From positions 1 through 34,882 of IMG/VR virus record IMGVR_UViG_3300017783_000095: a DNA stretch of 34,882 nucleotides; one strand, 5' to 3'. The DNA is from a virus. Under the pieces are notes generated by a model that was not told the origin of the DNA, did not search any database, and saw only the letters and a program-made list of their open reading frames with translations. Each line of letters starts with the position of its first letter. Within the stretch, counting starts at the first letter, position 1. A program made the position numbers and the translations under genes. Below are positions 124 through 29,727 of this stretch, one piece after another.

Positions 124-1107
124 TTTAATCAGTGGCTTTCTTCTCAGAAAGATGCCAATGCTGCTGTCACATTAGCCAGTAATGCTTTTAGCGCATCTCC
201 AAACCTTAGATATCAAATACTTTCTTTGTTTAGGCATGAAGTTGTTACTGCCGCTTCAAGTGGTATGTTTGATGCTAATGCGCTAAATGGCGCTGTCCAA
301 AGAACTTGGAACAGGCTAAATGATTCGGTAAAGATTGAATTTGAAAAAGTTGGCACAGCCTTACTTACTCCTCAAATAACAAATCAAAGCCTAACAGGTA
401 TGGCATTAGATGTTGCGGCTGTAATTCCTAAAGCGTTAAACATGATGGATGATGCTGTTTACGCTCCAAGAATTGTTATAAATCCTGCGGAAAACCAACT
501 TGTAGGCACAGGACTTCCTACTGACTTGCATCCAGATAGGAGAGAAGTACTCAACAACATGGTTCTTAGAGGACTTGCAGAAGTGCCTGATTCTTATCTG
601 GACAATCTTGGGATAAGAAGAAGTAATGTAGAGGAAGCTATTCAAAACGGATATGTTTATTTCAGAAGAACAAGTCCATTAGGAAACCCAAATGGTCTAG
701 ATTCTTATGAGGTTGTTGTAAAAACAGGCATAGGCGATGGGCTTTTTGATTTTGTTGATTCTTCATTTACAACTACTTTGTTTAGCGACTTTGTTCCAAA
801 CTATCGTGCTGATACTGTTCTTAATGAAGCCTACAATAAAGCTTTGGCAAATGGGGTGGATGTAAAGTTTTTAGGCCAAGTAGACTCATACAGTAAAATT
901 TTTGGCTCTTACGCTGTTAGAGAAGCTGTAAAAAATGAAATCAATAAGCCAAGTTTAACTGGTGGAGCTACAGCTCCTTCTGCAATTACCATTGCGGCAC
1001 TAAATACTTTAGCGGATTTGCGTGGTTTGCCTCGTATTGAAAACATAACATCAGAGCAAGCTGATGCAGCAGCAGATTACTTTAACTTCTTCACAGTGGC
1101 ACAATAA
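1..1107 (+). CDS. Large internal virion (ejection) protein, C-terminal part
   Basis: This is the 3' end of the gene that begins at 32177. Codons are open from base 1 (frame 1, reading K-D-I-E-D-N-N-D) to the stop at 1105-1107, and joined across the circle the protein has 1,229 residues. It is soluble-looking, largely helical, with no clear signal or membrane segment. By position (after the tail nozzle and a small gp14-like protein, before another giant protein) it is the equivalent of a T7-type internal core protein that is ejected with the DNA. The specific enzymatic role, if any, is not visible. The stop overlaps the ATG of the next gene (ATAATG), which suggests translational coupling. Function is inferred from synteny; the reading frame is certain. 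Confidence 0.85.
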   Translation, partial: KDIEDNNDALFQAVMKLTFDQDRSFGLEYWFGGNDSANEERFNQWLSSQKDANAAVTLASNAFSASPNLRYQILSLFRHEVVTAASSGMFDANALNGAVQRTWNRLNDSVKIEFEKVGTALLTPQITNQSLTGMALDVAAVIPKALNMMDDAVYAPRIVINPAENQLVGTGLPTDLHPDRREVLNNMVLRGLAEVPDSYLDNLGIRRSNVEEAIQNGYVYFRRTSPLGNPNGLDSYEVVVKTGIGDGLFDFVDSSFTTTLFSDFVPNYRADTVLNEAYNKALANGVDVKFLGQVDSYSKIFGSYAVREAVKNEINKPSLTGGATAPSAITIAALNTLADLRGLPRIENITSEQADAAADYFNFFTVAQ

Positions 1108-4100
1108 TGGCTGAAAGCAGATTTGCATCAAACATCGAGGAACTTCCTGATTTTATAAAGGAAGATGGCGATAAGTTTTATGATTCTCAGACTCCTCCTC
1201 CTGGGTTTACTGATTATGTTGGAGCAAGGCTTTATGAAAGCTTCCCTGCTGTTGCTTATAGATGGTGGGATAAAGAAGAATATGAAAACGATCCTGACTT
1301 TGAACCTTTAGCAGAACAAGAGTTTCAGCCTGGGGGAAGGCTAGAATCTAATAAAAGAATATTTGGCGGTGCTGGCAGTCGCAAAGAGCTAGACGGCATG
1401 ATTAGGTCTTATGACGAATCGATGGAAGCCAAAAAGACTATTATGGATTTTGAGCAAAAGAAGCCAGGGGGCGCACTAATGAGGGGTGCGGCATACACAA
1501 CTTCTTTTGGTGCAGACGTATTAGGCGACCCTTTGACTTATGTTCCTGTTCTTGGGTGGTGGGCTAAAGGCGCAAAGGCCAGTCATAGATTCATGGCGGC
1601 TGGGTCTGTTGGTTTTGCGGCTACTGTTCCTTATGAGTACATACGCAGACAAGAAAGCATGACCAGAACAAATGCTGAGTCACTCATAGTTATGGGGGCT
1701 ATGTTTGGCTTAAACGGCACAGTTGGTGCTGCATTTGGTAAATCAACCTTTAGACCAGCATCATCGAACTTAGGTGGTAAGGTTAGCCCAGATGATTATG
1801 AGCCAGTAAACTTTGGTTCGACTATTAATGACCAGCCATATGTTTCAGATCCAAGGCGTGTAGAGCCTGAGAATGTTGCCAGAGACGAATCTGGTGAGCC
1901 AGTAACTTGGCGTCAAAAAGCAGAGAACTTAAATGGTGTTGAAACAGGCAAACCTTTTACTGCTACATTATGGAGAGCGCAAACGGAGACTCCAACTATG
2001 GGGCCGATGTCAGGTTCTATGGGTGATGATGCTCAGTATTGGGCTGTCAGTAAAGGTCAGGCTTCCGGTTACGGAGATGATGTTATCGAAGCCGAGGTAA
2101 CATTGCAAAACCCACTTGTTATTAGAGACGCAAGTGACATACAGGAGTTCTTTGCTAGAACAGGCAAAGATATGAGTCCTGAAGAAGCAGAGGCAATGCT
2201 TGCTTTGTCTGGCATGAGGGCTGTTACCGATGGTTCTATTGGTAAAATGGCAAAAGATTTAGGGCATGATGGCATCATTGTTAATGTATGGGATAATGGT
2301 CAGCTAGTTAATCGTCCGGGCAAAACACCTGGGAACGCTAACTTTGACCAAAACGAAGTTGTTGTGTTTGCTAAGGACAGATTCAATGCAGATGAAACCA
2401 TTGGTTTTGAAGCAACACCTAAGTCAGCTGGTGCAGCTGCCGCTAATGTAAGTATCCGTGATTTAGAACGTCAAGAGTCACTGAGGGCTACCAGACTTGG
2501 TATTGAAAACGCACCACTAAACCCTCTGCTTAGAATGTTGCAGGGTGGTGCAGAGTCATCAAGGTTGGTTCAAGACTTGGTTGAGCCAGCTGGAATGATT
2601 CTAAACAAGGTAGACGACCAGATACCTATGAATAATAACTCTGTGTCTACTATGTTTAAGACGACATATCTTACGCCTCTTTTTAACGCTATCACCAAAG
2701 CAGAGGAAGCGTTCTTAAACTACAGAGGTAAATATAATAACAGGTCTGGAGTTACTGCAAACGCATTTAGAATGTTGCGTGAAAAGGTTTCTACAAGAGC
2801 AGAAGGTCACGGCAGAAATACAGACTTATACAGAATGTTCAATGAACGTGTTGGTTTGGCTTTGATGCGTGGCGGTGACGACATGGCAGATGAAATGACG
2901 CCATTTGTTAATGAGGCTGCAACTGCATATCGTGAGGTTTTAGACTTAGTTCGCAGAGAAGGTACTAATGTTAATCTATGGGTTAAGGAGATTGACAAGA
3001 AACTGGCGAAGTTACAAGAGCGCCTAGAGACTGCAAACCCCACAACTGCTGCTAAGATATCAAATCAAATGGATAACCTTGCGGCAAAGAGGGACGTTAT
3101 TACTCAAGCTGGTGTGCAAGCTACCATACGCTCACAAGGTTATTTTCCTAGAGTCTATGATATTGAATATCTGCTTACTGATGCTGGTAAAGCAGAATGG
3201 ATGCGTGTTGTTGGTGGTCAGATTGGTAGAGAGCCAGCACAACAAGCTTGGACTAAAATAACCAACTCTTATGATGATACCTTAGAAGGGTTTGATTCGT
3301 TTATAGACGATGTTGCGGCTGGTGGCGCACAAGCCCGTATGCTCGATGTAGACGATGAGATTCTTGTTCCCTTCTTGGACTTTAATACAGAAGCAGTAAT
3401 CCGTGACCATGTACGCAGAATGGGTATGGATATTGAGCTTACTCGTAAGTTTGGTTCTGTTGATATGGCAGATGATATTGCGGCATTGCCTAATGCCGCT
3501 GCTAAGAGAGATGCTACAGCGATAAGAGACTTGCTTCGTGGTGTTTATGGCAGACCATCAGATCCGTACTCTATGTTAAACAGAGGCGTATCTTTGCTAA
3601 AGAACTACAGCCCATTGGTTTATATGGGTGGAGCAGCTGTATCATCACTACCTGATATAGCAAGGCCAATTATGACAGAAGGTCTAAACGCTTTCTTTGG
3701 CACAGGTTTGAAGGCTTTGTTAAGCGCACAAAGAAAAGAAATACTTCAACTTAACAGACAGCAGATTCGTGAAGTTGGTGAAGCATTGGACATGACTCTC
3801 TCTATGAGAGCATTTGCTATGGCTGACACTGGCTCTACATTTGGCAGAATGAGTCCTCTTGAAAGAAGTGTAAAGAATATACAAGTTCCATTCTTCTTAC
3901 TTAATGGTTTGAATATATGGACTACTGTAATGAAAGAGTTTAGTGGTCTTATAATTAGTAACCGTATGCTTAAAGCTGTAGGAAAAGACTGGCAAACACT
4001 ACCCATTGCAGATAGAGATCGTTTGTTAGCCAACGGCATTGATGGGCCGATGGCATCAAGAATTAATTCTATGATGCAAGTAGATGGTTTCTTTAATCAA

Positions 4101-4748
4101 GTAGGCTCTTTTAAGTTTCCTGTTCTTGGTGCATGGACTGATACTGGTGCGGCAGATGCTTTCAAAAGAGCATTAAACCAACAGATAAACAGAACCATTG
4201 TTACTCCGAACACAGGTGAAAAAGCACTGTGGACTGAGGGTCATGTAGGTGGGATGATTGCTCAGTTCAAAAGCTTTGGTCAATCATCTACACAGCGTAT
4301 GCTTATATCTGGCTTGCAAGAAAGAAATGCTAACTTTTACATAGGCGCTGCGGCAATGGCGTCTCTTGGTATGCTTGTTAATGAAATCAAAGAGATACAG
4401 TATGGATATGATAAAAAGCGTACTTGGGGTCAGGTGTTAGCTGATGGTGCAGACAGGGCTGGTTTGTTTGCAATTCTCTCTGACTTCAACCATGCGTTAG
4501 AAGTAATGACATCTAATAATATGGGTTTAGATGCCCTTGCTGGTGGAGAGCCAAAAAAGCCATCTGTAAGAAAAACAATATCCACATTTGCTGGCCCAGG
4601 TGGTGCTACTGTTTATGACTTTACTAGAATGGCAACTGAAGCATTATCAGGTAGAGCTTTTGAGCAAGAGTTTATGAATAGTATGTTAAGGGCTACCCCC
4701 TATCAATCACACCCACTGTTCCCAAGGGGGTTTTATGCAGTTGACTAA
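1107..4748 (+). CDS. Giant internal virion protein with ADP-ribosyltransferase-like domain
   Basis: A protein of 1,213 residues in the place of T7 gp16, the last and largest ejection protein. Residues about 280-425 look like an ADP-ribosyltransferase fold of the polyvalent-protein type: an early strand with LWRAQ (R290), an aromatic-serine strand followed by a glycine-tyrosine helix (QYWAVSKGQASGYG, S315), a strand ending NPLVIRD, a G-H-D-G-I-I-V turn near 390, and NEVVVF carrying a candidate catalytic E417. The rest is long and helical, with some hydrophobic stretches around residues 140-175, 830-880 and 1070-1090 that could help form a channel. I see no lytic transglycosylase motif of the T7 gp16 type. 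One of the three sites complementary to the candidate small RNA lies in it (3038-3056). The ejection role comes from gene order; the transferase call is motif-based. Confidence 0.7.
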   Translation: MAESRFASNIEELPDFIKEDGDKFYDSQTPPPGFTDYVGARLYESFPAVAYRWWDKEEYENDPDFEPLAEQEFQPGGRLESNKRIFGGAGSRKELDGMIRSYDESMEAKKTIMDFEQKKPGGALMRGAAYTTSFGADVLGDPLTYVPVLGWWAKGAKASHRFMAAGSVGFAATVPYEYIRRQESMTRTNAESLIVMGAMFGLNGTVGAAFGKSTFRPASSNLGGKVSPDDYEPVNFGSTINDQPYVSDPRRVEPENVARDESGEPVTWRQKAENLNGVETGKPFTATLWRAQTETPTMGPMSGSMGDDAQYWAVSKGQASGYGDDVIEAEVTLQNPLVIRDASDIQEFFARTGKDMSPEEAEAMLALSGMRAVTDGSIGKMAKDLGHDGIIVNVWDNGQLVNRPGKTPGNANFDQNEVVVFAKDRFNADETIGFEATPKSAGAAAANVSIRDLERQESLRATRLGIENAPLNPLLRMLQGGAESSRLVQDLVEPAGMILNKVDDQIPMNNNSVSTMFKTTYLTPLFNAITKAEEAFLNYRGKYNNRSGVTANAFRMLREKVSTRAEGHGRNTDLYRMFNERVGLALMRGGDDMADEMTPFVNEAATAYREVLDLVRREGTNVNLWVKEIDKKLAKLQERLETANPTTAAKISNQMDNLAAKRDVITQAGVQATIRSQGYFPRVYDIEYLLTDAGKAEWMRVVGGQIGREPAQQAWTKITNSYDDTLEGFDSFIDDVAAGGAQARMLDVDDEILVPFLDFNTEAVIRDHVRRMGMDIELTRKFGSVDMADDIAALPNAAAKRDATAIRDLLRGVYGRPSDPYSMLNRGVSLLKNYSPLVYMGGAAVSSLPDIARPIMTEGLNAFFGTGLKALLSAQRKEILQLNRQQIREVGEALDMTLSMRAFAMADTGSTFGRMSPLERSVKNIQVPFFLLNGLNIWTTVMKEFSGLIISNRMLKAVGKDWQTLPIADRDRLLANGIDGPMASRINSMMQVDGFFNQVGSFKFPVLGAWTDTGAADAFKRALNQQINRTIVTPNTGEKALWTEGHVGGMIAQFKSFGQSSTQRMLISGLQERNANFYIGAAAMASLGMLVNEIKEIQYGYDKKRTWGQVLADGADRAGLFAILSDFNHALEVMTSNNMGLDALAGGEPKKPSVRKTISTFAGPGGATVYDFTRMATEALSGRAFEQEFMNSMLRATPYQSHPLFPRGFYAVD
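3038..3056 (+). repeat. Small-RNA-complementary site 1 (late gene)
   Basis: The sequence CCCCACAACTGCTGCTAAG differs at one base from the reverse complement of 10461-10479. As RNA it would pair with that segment over all 19 positions, with a single G-U wobble. It lies in frame within the giant internal virion gene (codons for P-T-T-A-A-K). Sister sites are at 22228 and 29650. Confidence 0.6.
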
Positions 4749-5739: not shown

Positions 5740-7863
5740 ATGGCTACTTTGAACCTTGGTAAAATACGTTTCAACTGGAGATCCACATTTAGCGCTAGTA
5801 CGGTGTACAGCAAAAATGATGCTGTCTCCTATAACGGCAGCACTTGGATTGCTATCATTGACCAGTCTGCACCAGCATATGATGCTACTGTACAGTATTC
5901 CCTTAATGACCTTGTAACGGATGGCGGTAATGTCTTTAGGTATATCAATGCTACAGCAAGCATCGGCACAGCGACTACCACAACAACACATTGGGAAGCC
6001 AACAACCCTACAACTTCTAACACGACGTTTTGGGATTTGGTGGCGCAAGGAACGAACATTCTCACTACTCAAGGAGATATCCTTACTCACGATGGTACTA
6101 ACGCAACACGCCTTGCTCGGGGTAGTTCTGGCGACATACTAACAGTATCAGGTAATGATTTAACATTTTCACCTTTAGATGCTTTGTCAGGTAGAAAATA
6201 TCTTAAGCCAAACTATGACCAAGTTGTTCATCACAATGCGGCAACCACTTATGGAGCATCTGGCTCTAGGGCTTGGCTTGCTGACTATGCAAACAACTGG
6301 ATACCCGAAAGCGGTATACCTAATCCAAAGATGAGTCCTCTTATGTTTCAAGATAAGTTGACAGGATACGGTGGTGGATATCGTGGCTTTGCGTATCTAA
6401 ATCAAAACCATGAAGTCATTCTATCTGGCACAGATGGTTATCGCGTAATGGGTAACTCTGGTGGCAACACTCATCGCAGAGGCATTACAACTAATATATC
6501 TCCTGAGTTTGGTGGATTAGAAGATGGCGAATACTTTGTTCGCATCTGGTATCAGTATTACAATCTTTATGTAATGACTAACAAAGGCGGATTGTTTGCG
6601 GCTGGTTATAATGGTCATGGACAGCTTGGCGTTGGTGATACACTAGACCGCCATAATCTTGTTCGTGTTCCTGCGTTTGGTCAGGGAAGAACCCACAGTG
6701 GCACTGGCACTCGTTTGTGTGGATTTTGGACAAGTGGTGGTGGCGAAGGTTCTGGTCAAGAACATTCTTGCTACGGTATTGATGAACAAGGCAGACTGTT
6801 TGTTTGGGGTCACAACAGGCAGGGTATGTTGGGTAATGGTAACGCAACAAACCAAAACCGCCCTCAATTAATTACAACAATGAGTAACGTAACTCACATC
6901 GAAATTGGATATCATTCAGCTATGGCTGTTGATGCAAATAAAGATGTTTTTGCTACAGGTTACAATACCAACGGTCATCTTGCTGGTATTACCAGTACGA
7001 GTACAGCTACTAATACTTGGACGCAAATATCTGGAGCAACAGATGCTTATCAGATTATTAACAACCAGTATCAACACTATGCTGGTGGCTGGACTTATTA
7101 TGGGACAAGTTATTATCTAAATGAAAGCGGTGAGCTTTATTCATCTGGGTATGGCGGCAATAATGCTTTAGGAACTGGCTCAACGGCTAATGCAAATGCT
7201 TACGCAAGGGTTGGTGGCTCTGCAACATACTCAAGAATTTATGCCCATGGTCAAAGCCGAGACTTTACTGGCGTAGTCATTGGTGGAACACCATCAGCAC
7301 CTAATGGAGAGATATATCAATGGGGTGATAATGGTAACGGACAGTTAGCTGATGGTAGTACGACTAATTCATCTAGTCCGATTCAACCAGCTTCTAGTAT
7401 GCTTTATACAAATACTACAGTGTCCACTGCTGCTGACAGTGCGCCAACCAGTACAGCTCTTACATTTCCGAGAACTGACATTGTAAAAGTCTGGCCTCAG
7501 TCTGGCATACTTGGTCAAACAACAAGCCACATTTATTGTGAAGATAGTGTTGGTAATTTGTATGTAAATGGTTACAGCCAAGGGTTTACATATTATCAAA
7601 ACAATCATGGCAATACTAACATCTTGAACTTTAGACAAGATGTTGGCCCGATGAGTACACCAGAAACAACGACCACTAACTTCTGGGTTGGGGAAACTCA
7701 GAGAAGTGTCGAGGCTATTATAACAATGGGCTACTCATATAACTCAGAGGGAACTTCACTCTGCTTTATGAGTGATGGCACTATCTTGGTTCGTGGTTAC
7801 AATGCTCAAGGACAGATTGAGTCTGGCGACCAGTACATCGAATCTTGGATGCAACTTAATTAG
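5740..7863 (+). CDS. Receptor-binding tail protein with RCC1-like beta-propeller
   Basis: A 707-residue protein starting 12 bases after the fibre gene, behind a strong ribosome site (AAGGAG). Residues ~15-105 contain two carbohydrate-binding-like modules (YSKNDAVSYNGSTWIAI and a second Y-S-L-N-D-L-V-T-D-G-G copy). From about residue 190 to the end it is built of RCC1-type blades: repeated patterns of hydrophobic-x-x-x-G-x-N-x-x-G-Q-L-G, for example LFAAGYNGHGQLGVG, LFVWGHNRQGMLGNG, IYQWGDNGNGQLADG and ILVRGYNAQGQIESG, roughly 50-80 residues apart. RCC1/alpha-tubulin-suppressor propellers are used as recognition surfaces in various phage tail proteins. Binding of a host surface sugar is inferred from position and fold, not shown. 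Confidence 0.8.
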   Translation: MATLNLGKIRFNWRSTFSASTVYSKNDAVSYNGSTWIAIIDQSAPAYDATVQYSLNDLVTDGGNVFRYINATASIGTATTTTTHWEANNPTTSNTTFWDLVAQGTNILTTQGDILTHDGTNATRLARGSSGDILTVSGNDLTFSPLDALSGRKYLKPNYDQVVHHNAATTYGASGSRAWLADYANNWIPESGIPNPKMSPLMFQDKLTGYGGGYRGFAYLNQNHEVILSGTDGYRVMGNSGGNTHRRGITTNISPEFGGLEDGEYFVRIWYQYYNLYVMTNKGGLFAAGYNGHGQLGVGDTLDRHNLVRVPAFGQGRTHSGTGTRLCGFWTSGGGEGSGQEHSCYGIDEQGRLFVWGHNRQGMLGNGNATNQNRPQLITTMSNVTHIEIGYHSAMAVDANKDVFATGYNTNGHLAGITSTSTATNTWTQISGATDAYQIINNQYQHYAGGWTYYGTSYYLNESGELYSSGYGGNNALGTGSTANANAYARVGGSATYSRIYAHGQSRDFTGVVIGGTPSAPNGEIYQWGDNGNGQLADGSTTNSSSPIQPASSMLYTNTTVSTAADSAPTSTALTFPRTDIVKVWPQSGILGQTTSHIYCEDSVGNLYVNGYSQGFTYYQNNHGNTNILNFRQDVGPMSTPETTTTNFWVGETQRSVEAIITMGYSYNSEGTSLCFMSDGTILVRGYNAQGQIESGDQYIESWMQLN

Positions 7864-10319: not shown

Positions 10320-10361
10320 GTGAATACCCTCTCTTTCTTTAGTTGTTTATTGTATAGACTC

Positions 10362-10406
10362 ACCACCAGAGAGAGGTGGTTTAATTTCCTCCCTGCCACC
10401 TCTCTC
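10362..10406. other. Two competing hairpins in the convergence region
   Basis: A perfect 11-bp inverted repeat (10369-10379, GAGAGAGGTGG, with 10396-10406) overlaps a second hairpin (ACCACC 10362-10367 with GGTGGT 10375-10380, followed by TTTAATTT). The second could be a weak rightward terminator behind the lysozyme gene, and the first would block it. An attenuator-like switch is possible. The sequence alone cannot tell this from a plain bidirectional terminator. Confidence 0.45.
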
Positions 10407-10418
10407 ACTTTAAGTAGC

Positions 10419-10450
10419 TTGACATAATATGTTTGATTATGGAATATGAT
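10419..10450 (+). promoter_or_regulatory. Promoter-like element ahead of a candidate small RNA
   Basis: A consensus -35 box TTGACA (10419-10424) lies in AT-rich DNA, with TATGAT (5 of 6 to the -10 consensus) at 10445-10450. The 20-base spacer is longer than ideal, so strength is doubtful. No rightward gene follows. The first thing downstream is a hairpin plus T-run terminator at 10482-10518, which would give a transcript of about 60 bases. Confidence 0.4.
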
Positions 10451-10456
10451 TGTAAC

Positions 10457-10518
10457 AGCCCTTAGCGGCAGTTGTGGGGAAAGGGGGCGCTCAGGTATAA
10501 ACTGGCGTCCTCTTTTTT
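10457..10518 (+). ncRNA. Candidate intergenic small RNA with late-gene complementarity
   Basis: A likely transcript between the promoter-like box (10419-10450) and the intrinsic terminator (10482-10518). Its 5' half contains CTTAGCGGCAGTTGTGGGG (10461-10479), which would stay single stranded in the terminated RNA. That segment can pair with 3038-3056 (19 pairs, one G-U), 22228-22246 (19 pairs, three G-U) and 29650-29666 (17 pairs, two G-U), all in sense strands of late genes. It also pairs with 10527-10545 just beyond the terminator (19 pairs, three G-U), which a read-through transcript would use. A 62-nt RNA with a free antisense segment and a terminator stem is the usual plan of a trans-acting small RNA. 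Expression and function are inferred; the complementarities are read directly. Confidence 0.5.
10482..10518 (+). terminator. Rightward intrinsic terminator
   Basis: Nine base pairs AGGGGGCGC (10482-10490) with GCGTCCTCT (10505-10513), two of them G-U, and a 14-base loop that can close further (CAG/CTG). A run of six T (10513-10518) follows at once. The G-U pairs work only in the plus-strand RNA, so it terminates rightward transcription. It also protects the early block from late read-through. Confidence 0.75.
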
Positions 10519-10526
10519 ATGCAAAA

Positions 10527-10545
10527 CCCCACAACTGTTGTTAAG
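10527..10545 (+). repeat. Complement of the small-RNA segment, beyond the terminator
   Basis: CCCCACAACTGTTGTTAAG pairs with 10461-10479 over 19 positions (three G-U), enclosing the terminator in a long hairpin. It differs at few positions from the late-gene sites at 3038, 22228 and 29650. Its last five bases overlap the stop of the leftward DUF2958 gene. Confidence 0.55.
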
Positions 10546-10864
10546 CTGCTATATAGCCTGCTTGTCTGGCTTCTTCGTAGTATTTAATAAGGCTTTTGTC
10601 TGGGCTGAAGTAAAGATCACGCTCAACTCCTAAGCCAAATGGTGGGAACTTGAGTGATTTTAGTTCTGACAGGCTTACACATCCTATCTCTGGTGTACCC
10701 TGACCAATATCACAAAGACCATATAGAGTATCTCCATCTGGATACATTTGCGATATTAGCCAAGTGAACGCCCCACCCCCGAATAGCTTTACTATAGGTT
10801 TTCCTGAGTCTTTGCCATAGGCGGCTTTTAGTTTTTTTTCGTGTTCTTTAGTTATAAGTAACAT
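10541..10864 (-). CDS. DUF2958 family protein
   Basis: 107 residues with the features of DUF2958: the start MLLITKEHEKKLKAAYG, a central WLISQMYPDGDTLYGLCDIG, then SLSELKSL and the hallmark VERDLYF near the C-terminus. The family occurs in plasmids, conjugative elements and phages; its function is not known. ATG at 10862-10864 sits behind a strong ribosome site (AGGAGGGGCAA). It is a late member of the leftward early operon. Confidence 0.75.
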   Translation of the reverse strand: MLLITKEHEKKLKAAYGKDSGKPIVKLFGGGAFTWLISQMYPDGDTLYGLCDIGQGTPEIGCVSLSELKSLKFPPFGLGVERDLYFSPDKSLIKYYEEARQAGYIAA

Positions 10865-11206: not shown

Positions 11207-11394
11207 GATTTTGCCTTGCGTTTGTAATATTCATCCTCATGACAAGTGATGCATATTGTACGGTGGGCGACTGGTTCTATAGAAACGAGGATGCAGGTAA
11301 ACCATTGTACGGTTTTCCCACATACCTCGCACTCTGCTGGTTTCCCAACATTATCTACTTTATGCCGCTTTTTCCGCTTCTGATACCAAGGCAA
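11179..11394 (-). CDS. Small zinc-ribbon protein
   Basis: About 71 residues if the TTG at 11392-11394 is used; there is no ATG or GTG in a better place. Two knuckles, C22-x2-C25 (CEVCGKT) and C48-x2-C51 followed by HED (CITCHED), about 22 residues apart, should bind one zinc ion. The N-terminus is very basic (KRKKRHK), which fits nucleic-acid binding. The first 35 bases overlap the end of the annealing-protein gene. HNH-like or regulator-like roles are possible, but no nuclease motif is complete. Confidence 0.6.
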   Translation of the reverse strand: MPWYQKRKKRHKVDNVGKPAECEVCGKTVQWFTCILVSIEPVAHRTICITCHEDEYYKRKAKSCTSQTNNT

Positions 11395-11968
11395 CTTTCT
11401 TAGCTTTCCATGCTGTCATTACCTTATCTTTATCAGACTTAGGCAATTTGTCATAGACTGTTTTGTTTTTGCGCCAAGCTTCATCAATATCGTTGATTGA
11501 TTTGCACTGCTCGAACTCTTTACTCATCTTGTCGATGTTGAGCTGTGCTTCTTGTTTGACTGTCTCAGTATCCATAACTGGCAGATCTTCTCCTGCGTAT
11601 ATGTTAAGTCCAAGGCCAAAGAAAGCCAATGTCTTAACCAAGCAACGCTGGAGTGCGGTGTTAACCGCAAAACTGTCAGGAAAAGACATAGCCTTGTTCT
11701 TGAAATCAAGCACAGGATAAATCTCTGCATAAGATTCGCCTTCGATAGTAACAATTGTCTTAACATAGGTGTTCCCTTTAGTGTCTCGCATGAAGGGAAG
11801 CGGGTTGTTTTGGTTGTCATGAAATACAACTTTCTCAAATGTTGCACTTGGATAGTGAGATTTAACAAGTGACCAAGCCCATGTCCAAGACAGATAGGTA
11901 AAGTTACCTTTCTTGTCGGTGTGCTGTGAACAGTCAACTGCTGCTAGGGTTTTGAATACATCAGACAT
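11360..11968 (-). CDS. Single-strand annealing protein, Sak/DUF1071 type
   Basis: 202 residues matching the DUF1071 / Sak group of Rad52-like annealing proteins. Visible hallmarks are YLSWTWAWSLVKSHYP near residue 25, the strand pair VKTIVTIEGESYAEIYPVLD, and the signature NTALQRCLVKTLAFFGLGLN followed by IYAGEDLP near 105-130. It anneals complementary single strands made by the exonuclease whose gene overlaps upstream by 8 bases, giving a Red-like recombination pair. ATG at 11966-11968 follows AAGGAGGAACTACCG. The C-terminal ~60 residues are a charged helical tail that may contact SSB. Confidence 0.85.
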   Translation of the reverse strand: MSDVFKTLAAVDCSQHTDKKGNFTYLSWTWAWSLVKSHYPSATFEKVVFHDNQNNPLPFMRDTKGNTYVKTIVTIEGESYAEIYPVLDFKNKAMSFPDSFAVNTALQRCLVKTLAFFGLGLNIYAGEDLPVMDTETVKQEAQLNIDKMSKEFEQCKSINDIDEAWRKNKTVYDKLPKSDKDKVMTAWKAKKVALVSEAEKAA

Positions 11969-18757: not shown

Positions 18758-18934
18758 TTAGTTAGTGTATGATAGTTTGATTTGAACGAGTTCTTTGAAA
18801 CGTTCTGTGTCTGTGTCACCAAGCTCGATAAGCTGGTCTATCTCATCCGTGATAATGTCTAGAGTATCGATTGGATGGTGGTGAAGTGTTACTGCATCAG
18901 CTAGTACTTCGTTCTCGTCTTTAATGTACGGCAT
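18758..18934 (-). CDS. First early gene, small acidic protein (58 aa)
   Basis: ATG at 18932-18934 behind AAGGAGAACACGAC. The product begins MPYIKDENEVLADAV and is strongly acidic (DTLDIITDEIDQLIELGDTD), with a helical pattern. It is the gene nearest the large gene-free control region, so it should be the first early product. Small acidic early phage proteins often inhibit host enzymes or mimic DNA; nothing more can be read. Confidence 0.65.
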   Translation of the reverse strand: MPYIKDENEVLADAVTLHHHPIDTLDIITDEIDQLIELGDTDTERFKELVQIKLSYTN

Positions 18935-18963
18935 GTCGTGTTCTCCTTACGTTTATGTGTTGA

Positions 18964-19202
18964 GTTACAGCAGGTGTTATTCACACCTACGATGTTTCAG
19001 TTACACGCTTGGAAAGGGGCTGAAAGATAAATTCAGAAGAAGGGCTTGGATTTGCCCACAAGGCAAATGCTTTTTAGCCCGCCTCTGAAGAATGAGATAA
19101 GCGTGCAAGGAAGAAGTGGCAGTACGAGGTCGAGCTTATCGAACCCCTTGGAGAGTGTGATATGCCACTGCAAAGCGTGGGTGTGAATAATGCCTGTGTG
19201 GC
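18964..19202 (+). ncRNA. Candidate large structured RNA: three-way junction
   Basis: A closing helix P1 pairs 18971-18991 with 19176-19196 over 21 uninterrupted positions, three of them G-U that work only in plus-strand RNA; with one bulge it extends to 18964/19202. Inside, P2 (19004-19010 with 19099-19105) carries a long arm: 19032-19037/19084-19089, 19042-19046/19076-19080 and hairpin 19050-19056/19062-19068. P3 (19115-19121 with 19163-19169) encloses a bulged hairpin (19128-19145). The single-stranded joins are only 6-12 bases. No plus-strand reading frame exists here. It does not match a class I can name. The P1 arms could instead be two inverted protein sites, since the left arm alone is an AGGTGT-N5-ACACCT palindrome. 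Confidence 0.55.
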
Positions 19203-19465
19203 CCGAGCGGCCTGAGCGGTGTTAGGCGTAGTAATGGAAGTGAGCGAAGCACAGGACGCAATTCAATACTTGCAAATCAAGTATTGCGTCCGTAGTCAGT
19301 GTGTCGTTAGTGATGTGTATGTTAATAGGAATAGATGATGGGTACGACATACTTACTACACAGAATCCACGATTCTGTTTGCTTGAGTCGAAGTGATGCA
19401 ACGGCGATACGTTGCCCTGAGTGGAACGGAAATGATAAGTAATACAGATGGTTGGATAGTGTGAA
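19203..19465 (+). other. Gene-free hairpin-rich DNA upstream of terS
   Basis: No credible gene. Stable plus-strand hairpins follow one another: 19254-19291 (GGACGC/GCGTCC and AATACTTG/CAAGTATT with a 5-base bulge), 19317-19352 (GTATGT/ACATAC), 19360-19378 (ACAGAATC-CAC-GATTCTGT) and 19398-19415 (GCAACG/CGTTGC). A GCGAAGC mini-hairpin is at 19244-19250. A loose repeat beginning TGAG(C/T) occurs at 19213, 19241 and 19384, and beyond this segment's end motif-like copies continue through 19478. It may be the 3' half of the large RNA candidate, a packaging start, an origin, or a mixture. Confidence 0.45.
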
Positions 19466-19495
19466 TTGACAGGGTTTTGAGTGGAGTGCTATATC
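19466..19495 (+). promoter_or_regulatory. Probable late promoter ahead of terS
   Basis: Consensus -35 TTGACA (19466-19471), spacer of 18, and TATATC (19490-19495) as -10, about 29 bases before the terS start. It points into the whole late block. A short stem (19494-19499 with 19522-19527) can cover the terS start codon and might limit its translation. With no phage RNA polymerase, a host sigma70-type late promoter is expected. Confidence 0.5.
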
Positions 19496-19523
19496 ATTCA
19501 GTAGGATGTTGTGAGGATGCGGA

Positions 19524-20770: not shown

Positions 20771-22312
20771 ATGAATCTAGATTATGTGCCTCCTGGCCCT
20801 GTAGCCAAGGCATTTATGAAAGATTCTTCATTTGTGCGTGGTCTGCGTGGGCCGGTAGGTTCTGGTAAATCTGTAGCTTGTTGTATGGAAATCATGCGAA
20901 GGGCTACAATGCAAGAGCCTAACGCATCAGGTGTAAGAAAGAGTCGATGGGCTGTTATTCGTAATACGAATCCACAGCTTAAAACGACAACTATCAAGAC
21001 TTGGCGTGATTGGTTTGATGACGAGTTAGGCAGATTTGTGTGGTCGCCTCCTTATACCCACAATATCTGCTTTTCTCTTGGTGATAAAACCGTAGTTGAG
21101 CTTGAAGTTATCTTTTTGGCTTTAGATAAAAGCGAAGATGTTAAGAAGTTGCTGTCCTTAGAGCTTTCTGGCGTATGGATAAACGAAGCAAGAGAGATCC
21201 CAAAGTCAATTGTTGACGCTTGCACCATGCGTGTTGGTCGATTCCCATCGATGAGAGAGGGCGGCCCAAGCTGGTTTGGTGTTATAATGGACACCAACAG
21301 CCCAGATGAGTCTCATTGGTGGGGAATTATGTCTGGTGAAGTAGCTGTGCCAGAATATCTTACCCAAGAAGAAAAATTATTGATGGTTAAGCCTGATGAT
21401 TGGACGTTTTATACCCAACCTGGGGCTATGAAGTCTAAATTGGACTTAGAGGGTAACTTGCAGGGCTACGAAATTAACGATAAAGCCGAAAACATACCCA
21501 ATATCCAGAAAACATACTATGAAAAGATAATTCTTGGTAAAGCGCCAGCTTGGATTAAGGTTTATGTCCTTAATGAGTACCAAACCTTGCTAGACGGTAA
21601 GTCTGTTTACCCAACATTTAAGAAAGATGTGCATGTCGGCAAAGAAGTTATGCAGCCGAACGAAGGTTCTGACATTATTGTTGGCATAGACTTTGGCAGA
21701 ACGCCTTCCGCTGTTTTTATACAGCATTTGTATGGTGGAAGGTGGGTTGTTTTGCACGAATTAATTGGTCAGGACATGGGTGCGGCTAGATTTGCTGAAA
21801 TGCTCAAGCGTGATATTAGCCGACAAGGATGGGATAAACATACGTTTAAGTTTATTGGCGACCCTGCTGGCAATCAGATGGCTCAAACCAACGAGACAAC
21901 TCCCTTTATGATACTCCGTGCTGCTGGTGTAAATGCATACCCATGTAATACGAATGATATCTCATTGCGAATTGAGTCTGTTGAAGGTGTTCTGAATAGA
22001 ATGTCAGAGGGTATGCCAAGTATGCTTATAAATCCAACTTGCGTTACTTTGATAAATGGGTTTGAGGGTGGCTATCAGTACAAACGTACTTACTATATGG
22101 GTAATGAAAAGTACGATGAGAAACCTAATAAGAATCGTTTTAGTCACGTTCATGATGCCCTTCAATACGCTATGATTGGCGGTGGTGAAGGAAGGCGAGT
22201 ATTTACTGGCAATAGCAAACCTTCTCGCCCCACAACTGTTGCTAGGGCTAGCAGTCCACTAGAGCGTATGAGTGCTAGGAGAAAACCCAAGGGTAGATTC
22301 GCTTCGTTATGA
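20771..22312 (+). CDS. terL: Terminase large subunit
   Basis: 513 residues. ATPase: Walker A GPVGSGKS (27-34) and a Walker B-like strand LSGVWINEARE near 135. Nuclease: RNase H-like D307 in IIVGIDFGRTP, D364 in FIGDPAGN, and H461-D462 in HDALQYAM, the standard three-acid order. It translocates DNA into the prohead through the portal and cuts it. It starts one base after the upstream gene behind GGGGGATAAT and its stop overlaps the next gene. A site complementary to the candidate small RNA lies near its 3' end (22228-22246). Confidence 0.95.
   Translation: MNLDYVPPGPVAKAFMKDSSFVRGLRGPVGSGKSVACCMEIMRRATMQEPNASGVRKSRWAVIRNTNPQLKTTTIKTWRDWFDDELGRFVWSPPYTHNICFSLGDKTVVELEVIFLALDKSEDVKKLLSLELSGVWINEAREIPKSIVDACTMRVGRFPSMREGGPSWFGVIMDTNSPDESHWWGIMSGEVAVPEYLTQEEKLLMVKPDDWTFYTQPGAMKSKLDLEGNLQGYEINDKAENIPNIQKTYYEKIILGKAPAWIKVYVLNEYQTLLDGKSVYPTFKKDVHVGKEVMQPNEGSDIIVGIDFGRTPSAVFIQHLYGGRWVVLHELIGQDMGAARFAEMLKRDISRQGWDKHTFKFIGDPAGNQMAQTNETTPFMILRAAGVNAYPCNTNDISLRIESVEGVLNRMSEGMPSMLINPTCVTLINGFEGGYQYKRTYYMGNEKYDEKPNKNRFSHVHDALQYAMIGGGEGRRVFTGNSKPSRPTTVARASSPLERMSARRKPKGRFASL
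22228..22246 (+). repeat. Small-RNA-complementary site 2 (in terL)
   Basis: CCCCACAACTGTTGCTAGG, in frame as P-T-T-V-A-R. As RNA it pairs with 10461-10479 at all 19 positions, three of them G-U. Sixteen bases of it recur exactly at 29650-29665. Confidence 0.6.
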
Positions 22313-29257: not shown

Positions 29258-29727
29258 TGGATAAATATGAAAAAACTGCTGGCGTAGCTATCATGGGTAT
29301 AACTGCTGGAACTGGTGCTGGAATTGTTGGCGCAGAAGCAGTTAGGCAACACGTTAAAGATAAACCAATGCGTGAACGTGCAAAGCGACAAGCTGCTAAA
29401 CAAAAGCAAGCCGCAACAAAAAGCCAAGCACAAGCTAGGCAAATGGCTCAAGAAGAAAGAGCAAGACTTAGGAATATCCCTAATCAGCATTTAACTAAAC
29501 CAGAGCAGCAATTAAAAGCTGATAAGATATCAGAGCAGAATAGAGTTATTAAAGATAATAGCCCATCTAGAGTAAAAAGCATGGCTTCTAAAGGTTTGAA
29601 GGTTGGTAGGGTATTAAGCCCTTTTGGTGTAATTGCTTCTATTCTTACACCCACAACTGTTGCTAATGCTGAGTTAACACAGGCAGACCGTATGGCAGAA
29701 GAAGCAAAACGGCAAAGACGAGACTAA
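29257..29727 (+). CDS. Membrane-segment, lysine/alanine-rich virion protein
   Basis: 156 residues. A glycine-alanine hydrophobic segment at about 8-28 (VAIMGITAGTGAGIVGAEAV) is followed by a long lysine/arginine/glutamine/alanine-rich helix (35-75), and a second mildly hydrophobic part near 115-135 (GRVLSPFGVIASILTPTTVA). Placed between adaptor and nozzle genes it may be a small ejection or tail component. A site complementary to the small-RNA candidate lies near its 3' end (29650-29666). Confidence 0.6.
   Translation: MDKYEKTAGVAIMGITAGTGAGIVGAEAVRQHVKDKPMRERAKRQAAKQKQAATKSQAQARQMAQEERARLRNIPNQHLTKPEQQLKADKISEQNRVIKDNSPSRVKSMASKGLKVGRVLSPFGVIASILTPTTVANAELTQADRMAEEAKRQRRD
29650..29666 (+). 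repeat. Small-RNA-complementary site 3
   Basis: CCCACAACTGTTGCTAA, in frame as P-T-T-V-A-N. As RNA it pairs with 10462-10478 at 17 consecutive positions, two of them G-U. Its first 16 bases are identical to 22229-22244 in terL. Confidence 0.6.

Follow-up and report, generated by a model that had tools for sequence, protein, structure and literature searches.

What does a phage gain from an intergenic segment of 19 bases whose complement recurs within the coding sequences of its own late genes? This question is raised by IMG/VR record IMGVR_UViG_3300017783_000095, which was analyzed over its whole stretch of 34,882 nucleotides (hereafter, the window). The original prediction was that the segment belongs to a trans-acting small RNA that tunes the terminase and virion mRNAs, and the comparative analysis described here supports this core reading. 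A family of marine viruses of bacteria carries an RNA gene of roughly 65 bases whose pairing stretch changes in step with a matching stretch in the DNA-packaging gene, terL, which strongly suggests that the RNA binds and controls that gene's message, although the evidence comes entirely from sequence and both the transcription of the element and the sign of the regulation are inferred.

The window is a marine podovirus, and because it is bounded by an exact direct terminal repeat of 123 bp it is probably a complete genome of about 34.8 kb, with a late operon that wraps around the ends of the contig. The late genes (terL, connector, capsid, tail, internal virion proteins and endolysin) run rightward around the end of the sequence to 10153, whereas the early genes (single-strand DNA binding, ParB-like, RecE-like and Sak-like) run leftward to 10541 and, through a conserved 65-aa gene, to 10122. 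The element lies where the two meet. Nearly all of its relatives, which we denote here by handles beginning with L or G, are uncultured contigs of the viral collection, and the related isolates point to a marine origin. The closest isolate by terL, Pelagibacter phage Hodr (56%), lacks both the element and the terL site, no isolate phage record matches the element convincingly, and a search of GTDB genomes gave only distant terL relatives and no host. The features of the window that bear on the element, together with others noted along the way, are listed in Table 1.

Table 1. Features of the 34,882-nt window (coordinates are those of the window).
Position	Strand	Feature	Remarks
10419..10424	+	-35 box TTGACA of the predicted sRNA promoter	In the window and in L069/L070, coincides with the reverse complement of the start codon of a minus-strand gene
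10445..10450	+	Candidate -10 box TATGAT	TATGTT in L069/L070
10455..10518	+	Predicted small RNA, about 64 nt	Fold z = -3.4; 5' end inferred from the -35 position
10458..10469	+	5' mini-hairpin GCC-CTTAGC-GGC	Hardly varies and carries little covariation
10461..10479	+	Antisense seed CTTAGCGGCAGTTGTGGGG	Conserved core 10467-10479
10480..10518	+	Intrinsic terminator hairpin with U6	z = -6.3
10527..10545	-	Second seed-like copy (sense on the minus strand)	Directly after the 107-aa early gene
22228..22246	+	Primary predicted target, terL codons P-T-T-V-A-R near the 3' end	-40.5 kcal/mol; 63-81 nt before the next start codon
3038..3056	+	Second predicted target, in the internal virion protein gene	19 pairs with 1 G-U
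29649..29667	+	Third, weaker complement	-32.5 kcal/mol; probably chance or recent
20771..22312	+	terL, terminase large subunit	PHROG phrog_2, E=6e-25
1107..4748	+	Internal virion protein gene	PHROG phrog_342, E=5e-47
11360..11968	-	Sak-like single-strand annealing protein gene, genomic marker of the element	PHROG phrog_659, E=2e-50
10541..10864	-	107-aa early gene that ends next to the element	75-76% identical in L069/L070
10122..10319	-	Conserved 65-aa early gene beyond the element	Intact homologue in L070
1-123 and 34760-34882		Exact 123-bp direct terminal repeat	
10340-10430	-	Remnant of a 71-aa gene that is intact in L069/L070	A deletion of about 128 bp leaves its start codon and an out-of-frame 3' part
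10369-10406		11-bp hairpin GAGAGAGGTGG/CCACCTCTCTC, possible additional late-operon 3' structure	Two double compensatory changes plus one G-U in L069/L070, although it lies in the 3' end of the 71-aa gene
18926-19520		Long non-coding stretch between the divergent early and late operons, possible origin or another structured RNA	Strong GC skew and hairpins; 87% identical to L002 at 18926-19224, more than neighbouring coding DNA
5740-7863		707-aa protein matching RCC1-repeat (regulator of chromosome condensation) phage families, perhaps a receptor-binding beta-propeller	Next to a tail-fibre-like gene

The first matter to settle was whether the recurrence exceeds what chance and codon usage would provide. 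The 19-mer CCCCACAACTGYYGYTAAG occurs five times in the window at <=3 mismatches (3038+, 10461-, 10527+, 22228+ and 29649+), as compared to 0.03 in 100 dinucleotide shuffles. CCCCACAACTG is the only 11-mer with four copies, but 11% of codon-shuffled genomes contain some 11-mer that is as frequent, so DNA repetition alone is weak evidence once look-elsewhere is allowed for. The case is stronger when the segment is considered as pairing RNA. The seed has three sense coding sites, all in the same codon phase (Pro-Thr-Thr), whereas 200 codon shuffles that kept every protein gave 0, 1 or 2 sites (118, 76 and 6 shuffles, respectively) and never three. Simple counts of pairs were swamped by G/U-rich 19-mers, and an energy ranking was used instead; by this measure the seed is the only 19-mer of the genome (sampled every 3 nt) with >=3 coding sites at <= -32.5 kcal/mol, and three codon-shuffled genomes have none. 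It might be argued that the element is only the terminator of the late operon, since it sits at the late/early convergence with a plus-strand terminator, and that its complementarity to coding sequence is a coincidence arising from Pro-Thr-Thr codons, particularly as two other genes carry the motif by codon use and one of these sites (at 29650) is unconserved. The codon shuffles speak against this view, several relatives have a separate terminator-like hairpin with a T run just upstream of the element, and the comparisons described below make such a coincidence very improbable.

The nearest strains (L065/L071, 99.9% identical) were uninformative, but somewhat more distant relatives show which parts of the original prediction hold and which do not. 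L069 and L070 (about 75% DNA identity) keep TTGACA, the GGCAGTTGTGGGG core, the hairpin and the plus-strand U tract, but change the six bases before the core (CTTAGC to CGAAAC). The internal-virion site keeps its 14-nt core in L070, the one relative covering it, and terL keeps the core in L002, L003 and L062. In contrast, the 29650 site, which had been counted as a third matching site, is not conserved and reads CCTACTCCAGTG in the only relative that covers it. The original prediction also proposed that the copy at 10527 would fold back on the seed in read-through RNA and may shut it off. This copy is kept in L069/L070, but 550 bp and two genes away; the window has lost those genes and most of a third. 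Equivalents exist in G003, G016, G032, G055, G057 and G058, and in relatives generally the copy lies about 70-730 nt away, between genes of the opposite strand and usually just before a start codon. Because the distance is not conserved, the fold-back switch was rejected, and the copy reads instead as a second seed-like element of the early operon that a deletion brought close. The stretch bounded by the seed and this opposite-strand copy (e.g., L070 3950-4560) is a variable cassette whose genes differ between lineages, like a hot spot of gene exchange. In one relative (L154 4100-4700, G016) an integrase and a tRNA 3'-end remnant (likely attP) directly follow the sRNA terminator, so part of this phage family is temperate and integrates next to the element.

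The decisive evidence for pairing came from relatives with 71-75% terL identity, in which the terL site differs and the element differs with it. Examples of terL site and seed, respectively, are CCCCACTACTGTTGAG with CTCGGCAGTAGTGGGG (G016), CTTCCCATACAACCGT with GGCGGTTGTATGGGAAG (G014, G030), CCCTACAACCGTTG with CGGCGGTTGTAGGG (G037), CCCCACCACTGTTGAG with CTCGGCAGTGGTGGGG (G057) and CCCCTACCATAGTCC with GGGCTGTGGTAGGGG (G004). The Thr codon changes synonymously (ACA/ACT/ACC) together with the seed (T/A/G). The idea was suggested by the first relatives, and G030-G038 and then G057/G058 were found afterwards and agreed with it. Over 10 clades the energies of own seed-site pairs sum to -307.6 kcal/mol, as compared to -216.8 (sd 16.6) for swapped pairs, with none of 20,000 permutations as good; with G057 included, the values are -324.7 and -223.2 (sd 18.4), again 0 of 20,000. 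Three further bases beyond the core, in the loop of hairpin 1, also match the codon after the conserved valine (23 of 30 paired against 15.0, sd 2.3; 2 of 20,000). The clades are related to one another, and the permutation counts therefore overstate their independence; the seed core is invariant between the window and its nearest relatives, so that only the more distant clades give covariation, and the terL and element of the L069 clade come from separate contigs of one metagenome. Still, six seed classes each match their own terL. In 14 of 15 genomes the element is the best complement of the terL site anywhere on that strand, and in G032 it is third, behind two other copies of the same motif. 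Genomes G028 and G033, in which the region is present but the element absent, have no terL complement; G013, G015 and G017-G023 lack the region, and the G025 contig ends before the element.

Concerted change of all copies is also what would be expected of DNA sites for a phage protein (a repressor operator or stoperator, or a packaging or recombination protein) whose specificity drifts between clades. There are two to six copies of the motif per genome, on both strands, and some lie in places with no obvious RNA role; seed-like copies bound the variable cassette, and the extra copies include seed-sense copies in coding DNA of G032/G057/G058 and before early genes, which a pure sRNA-target model does not need. 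However, the site is not palindromic, the matching extends to clade-specific bases outside the motif, the site changes in terL follow codon and amino-acid changes, and one copy is always a unit of predicted promoter, hairpin, seed and terminator. The copies occur in both orientations and several are in coding sequence, unlike the many intergenic sites of consistent orientation to transcription that characterize repressor operators and stoperators. Moreover, the non-Watson-Crick pairs are 19 seed-G:target-U, 2 seed-U:target-G and 1 mismatch, with no A-C, which is the bias predicted for RNA pairing, although most of the 19 are the same two positions by descent and so count as few events. A DNA-site model cannot be fully excluded, but we consider it unlikely.

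The element itself belongs to an RNA family that Rfam does not hold: no Rfam family reached the gathering threshold over the window, and the best weak hits were to unrelated miRNA models. Sixteen distinct elements share a TTG-type -35 box 39-42 nt upstream of GC[C/T]-N5-6-GGC (L199 also has TTGATG at 41), followed by the seed, a purine run and a terminator whose hairpin is kept in relatives with different stem sequence. The -35 box coincides with quite different local features (reverse complement of a start codon, loop of an upstream terminator-like hairpin, AT-rich DNA), which argues that its position is selected. The TATGAT box of the original prediction fares less well: it is not at a fixed place in other clades, and in the window it is separated from TTGACA by 20 nt, outside the sigma-70 norm, and a promoter scan does not report the pair. 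An outward extension of the hairpin 1 stem (5' arm against seed) was not supported either, as its covariation was not above permutation (75 against 73.6, sd 2.1). A covariance model built without the window's clade finds the window (10452-10518) at E=1.7e-11 and L070 at 2.6e-11. It also finds elements in 40 of 80 loci fetched by the Sak-like protein, always downstream of and convergent to that gene, although 14 sequences of this set trained the model and only part of these are independent.

Are there partners other than terL? The internal virion gene carries sense complements at non-homologous places in the window and L070, in G055 and in G057/G058, which we regard as suggestive, since chance would give some. 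In G032, G057 and G058 and in G037/G038, the seed complement lies directly upstream of or over the Shine-Dalgarno sequence of a conserved 59-63-aa early gene of unknown function, at -29 to -37 kcal/mol, which is the textbook arrangement for repression; this leader (in terL orientation, G032 11540, G057 34850, G058 114 and 35174, and G037 12580) is preceded by a strong hairpin. No leader of a window gene shows a comparably strong complement. Seed-sense copies lie between early genes, mostly just before a start codon, in the window, L069/L070, G003, G016, G032, G055, G057 and G058. These observations, and the location of the terL pairing a short distance before the next start codon, leave room for the possibility that the pairing is real RNA pairing but differs in sign or partner, i.e., that it protects or processes the terL mRNA between cistrons, or that its main partners are the early-operon leaders, with late messages forming an RNA-RNA switch. 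We think this doubtful, since only the sRNA-terL pair is present in every clade tested with both loci, whereas the early-leader copies are clade-specific. A further proposal is that seed-type RNAs (the sRNA and early-operon leaders) and complement-type stretches inside late mRNAs (terL, internal virion protein) and early leaders silence one another, coupling early and late expression or blocking related superinfecting phages, without a phage RNA polymerase or repressor protein; this too appears improbable, but would be of considerable interest.

Taken together, it appears likely that the element is a gene for a phage-encoded, trans-acting, base-pairing small RNA, read rightward from its own predicted promoter between the converging early and late operons and ended by its own terminator. 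Its purine-rich seed (GGCAGUUGUGGGGAAA) begins in a small 5' hairpin and ends single-stranded, and is predicted to pair with the coding sequence near the 3' end of the terL mRNA and, in this phage, with the internal virion protein mRNA. Most likely it lowers their expression, by recruiting an endonuclease or blocking the message, as a brake on packaging and virion genes while a host-type promoter drives early transcription. The negative sign is inferred by analogy with relatives in which the same seed covers a ribosome-binding site, and the timing is likewise inferred: no phage RNA polymerase was seen among the annotated proteins, so a host-type promoter could make the RNA early and hold back packaging genes. 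The terL site lies in coding sequence, not at a ribosome-binding site, and pairing near the end of terL fits mRNA cleavage better than ribosome occlusion.

Few phage sRNAs with phage targets are known, and most of those are cis-antisense. A review lists phage RNAs with phage targets (OOP, sar, aQ, c4, 24B_1) and with host targets (PreS, VpdS) without mention of terminase (PMC12197685), and no phage sRNA against terminase was found among the open-licence papers searched. The present element represents a widespread, structurally defined family in uncultured marine phages whose target can be read from covariation alone, because the RNA and a codon of the packaging motor change together; it suggests that control of late phage genes by trans-acting RNA may be common in environmental phages and missed by protein-only annotation. 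OOP RNA of phage lambda (antisense to cII) and sar RNA of P22 (antisense to ant) are short phage RNAs with their own promoter and terminator that base-pair with a phage mRNA, OOP promoting RNase III decay of cII mRNA and sar blocking initiation of ant (PMC12197685). They are, however, cis-encoded opposite their targets, such that complementarity is automatic, whereas the targets of the present element are 7-19 kb away and on the same strand, with terL at 11.7 kb, and complementarity is maintained by covariation. The c4 RNA of P1/P7, as is predicted for the present RNA, acts on phage genes through a short seed that has several complementary copies in the same genome, but it is an immunity RNA that acts on leader regions near its own locus, while here the conserved target is the coding end of terL. 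STnc6030 of prophage BTP1, which is proposed to act in superinfection exclusion, is complementary to a late virion gene (PMC12197685), but is antisense to the tailspike gene rather than trans-encoded with a short covarying seed. VpdS of phage VP882 and PreS of lambda are, like the predicted RNA, phage-encoded base-pairing sRNAs that act in trans (PMC12197685); they are Hfq-dependent and have host targets (dnaN for PreS; host and phage RNAs for VpdS), and the present family is defined by a conserved phage target and a covarying seed.
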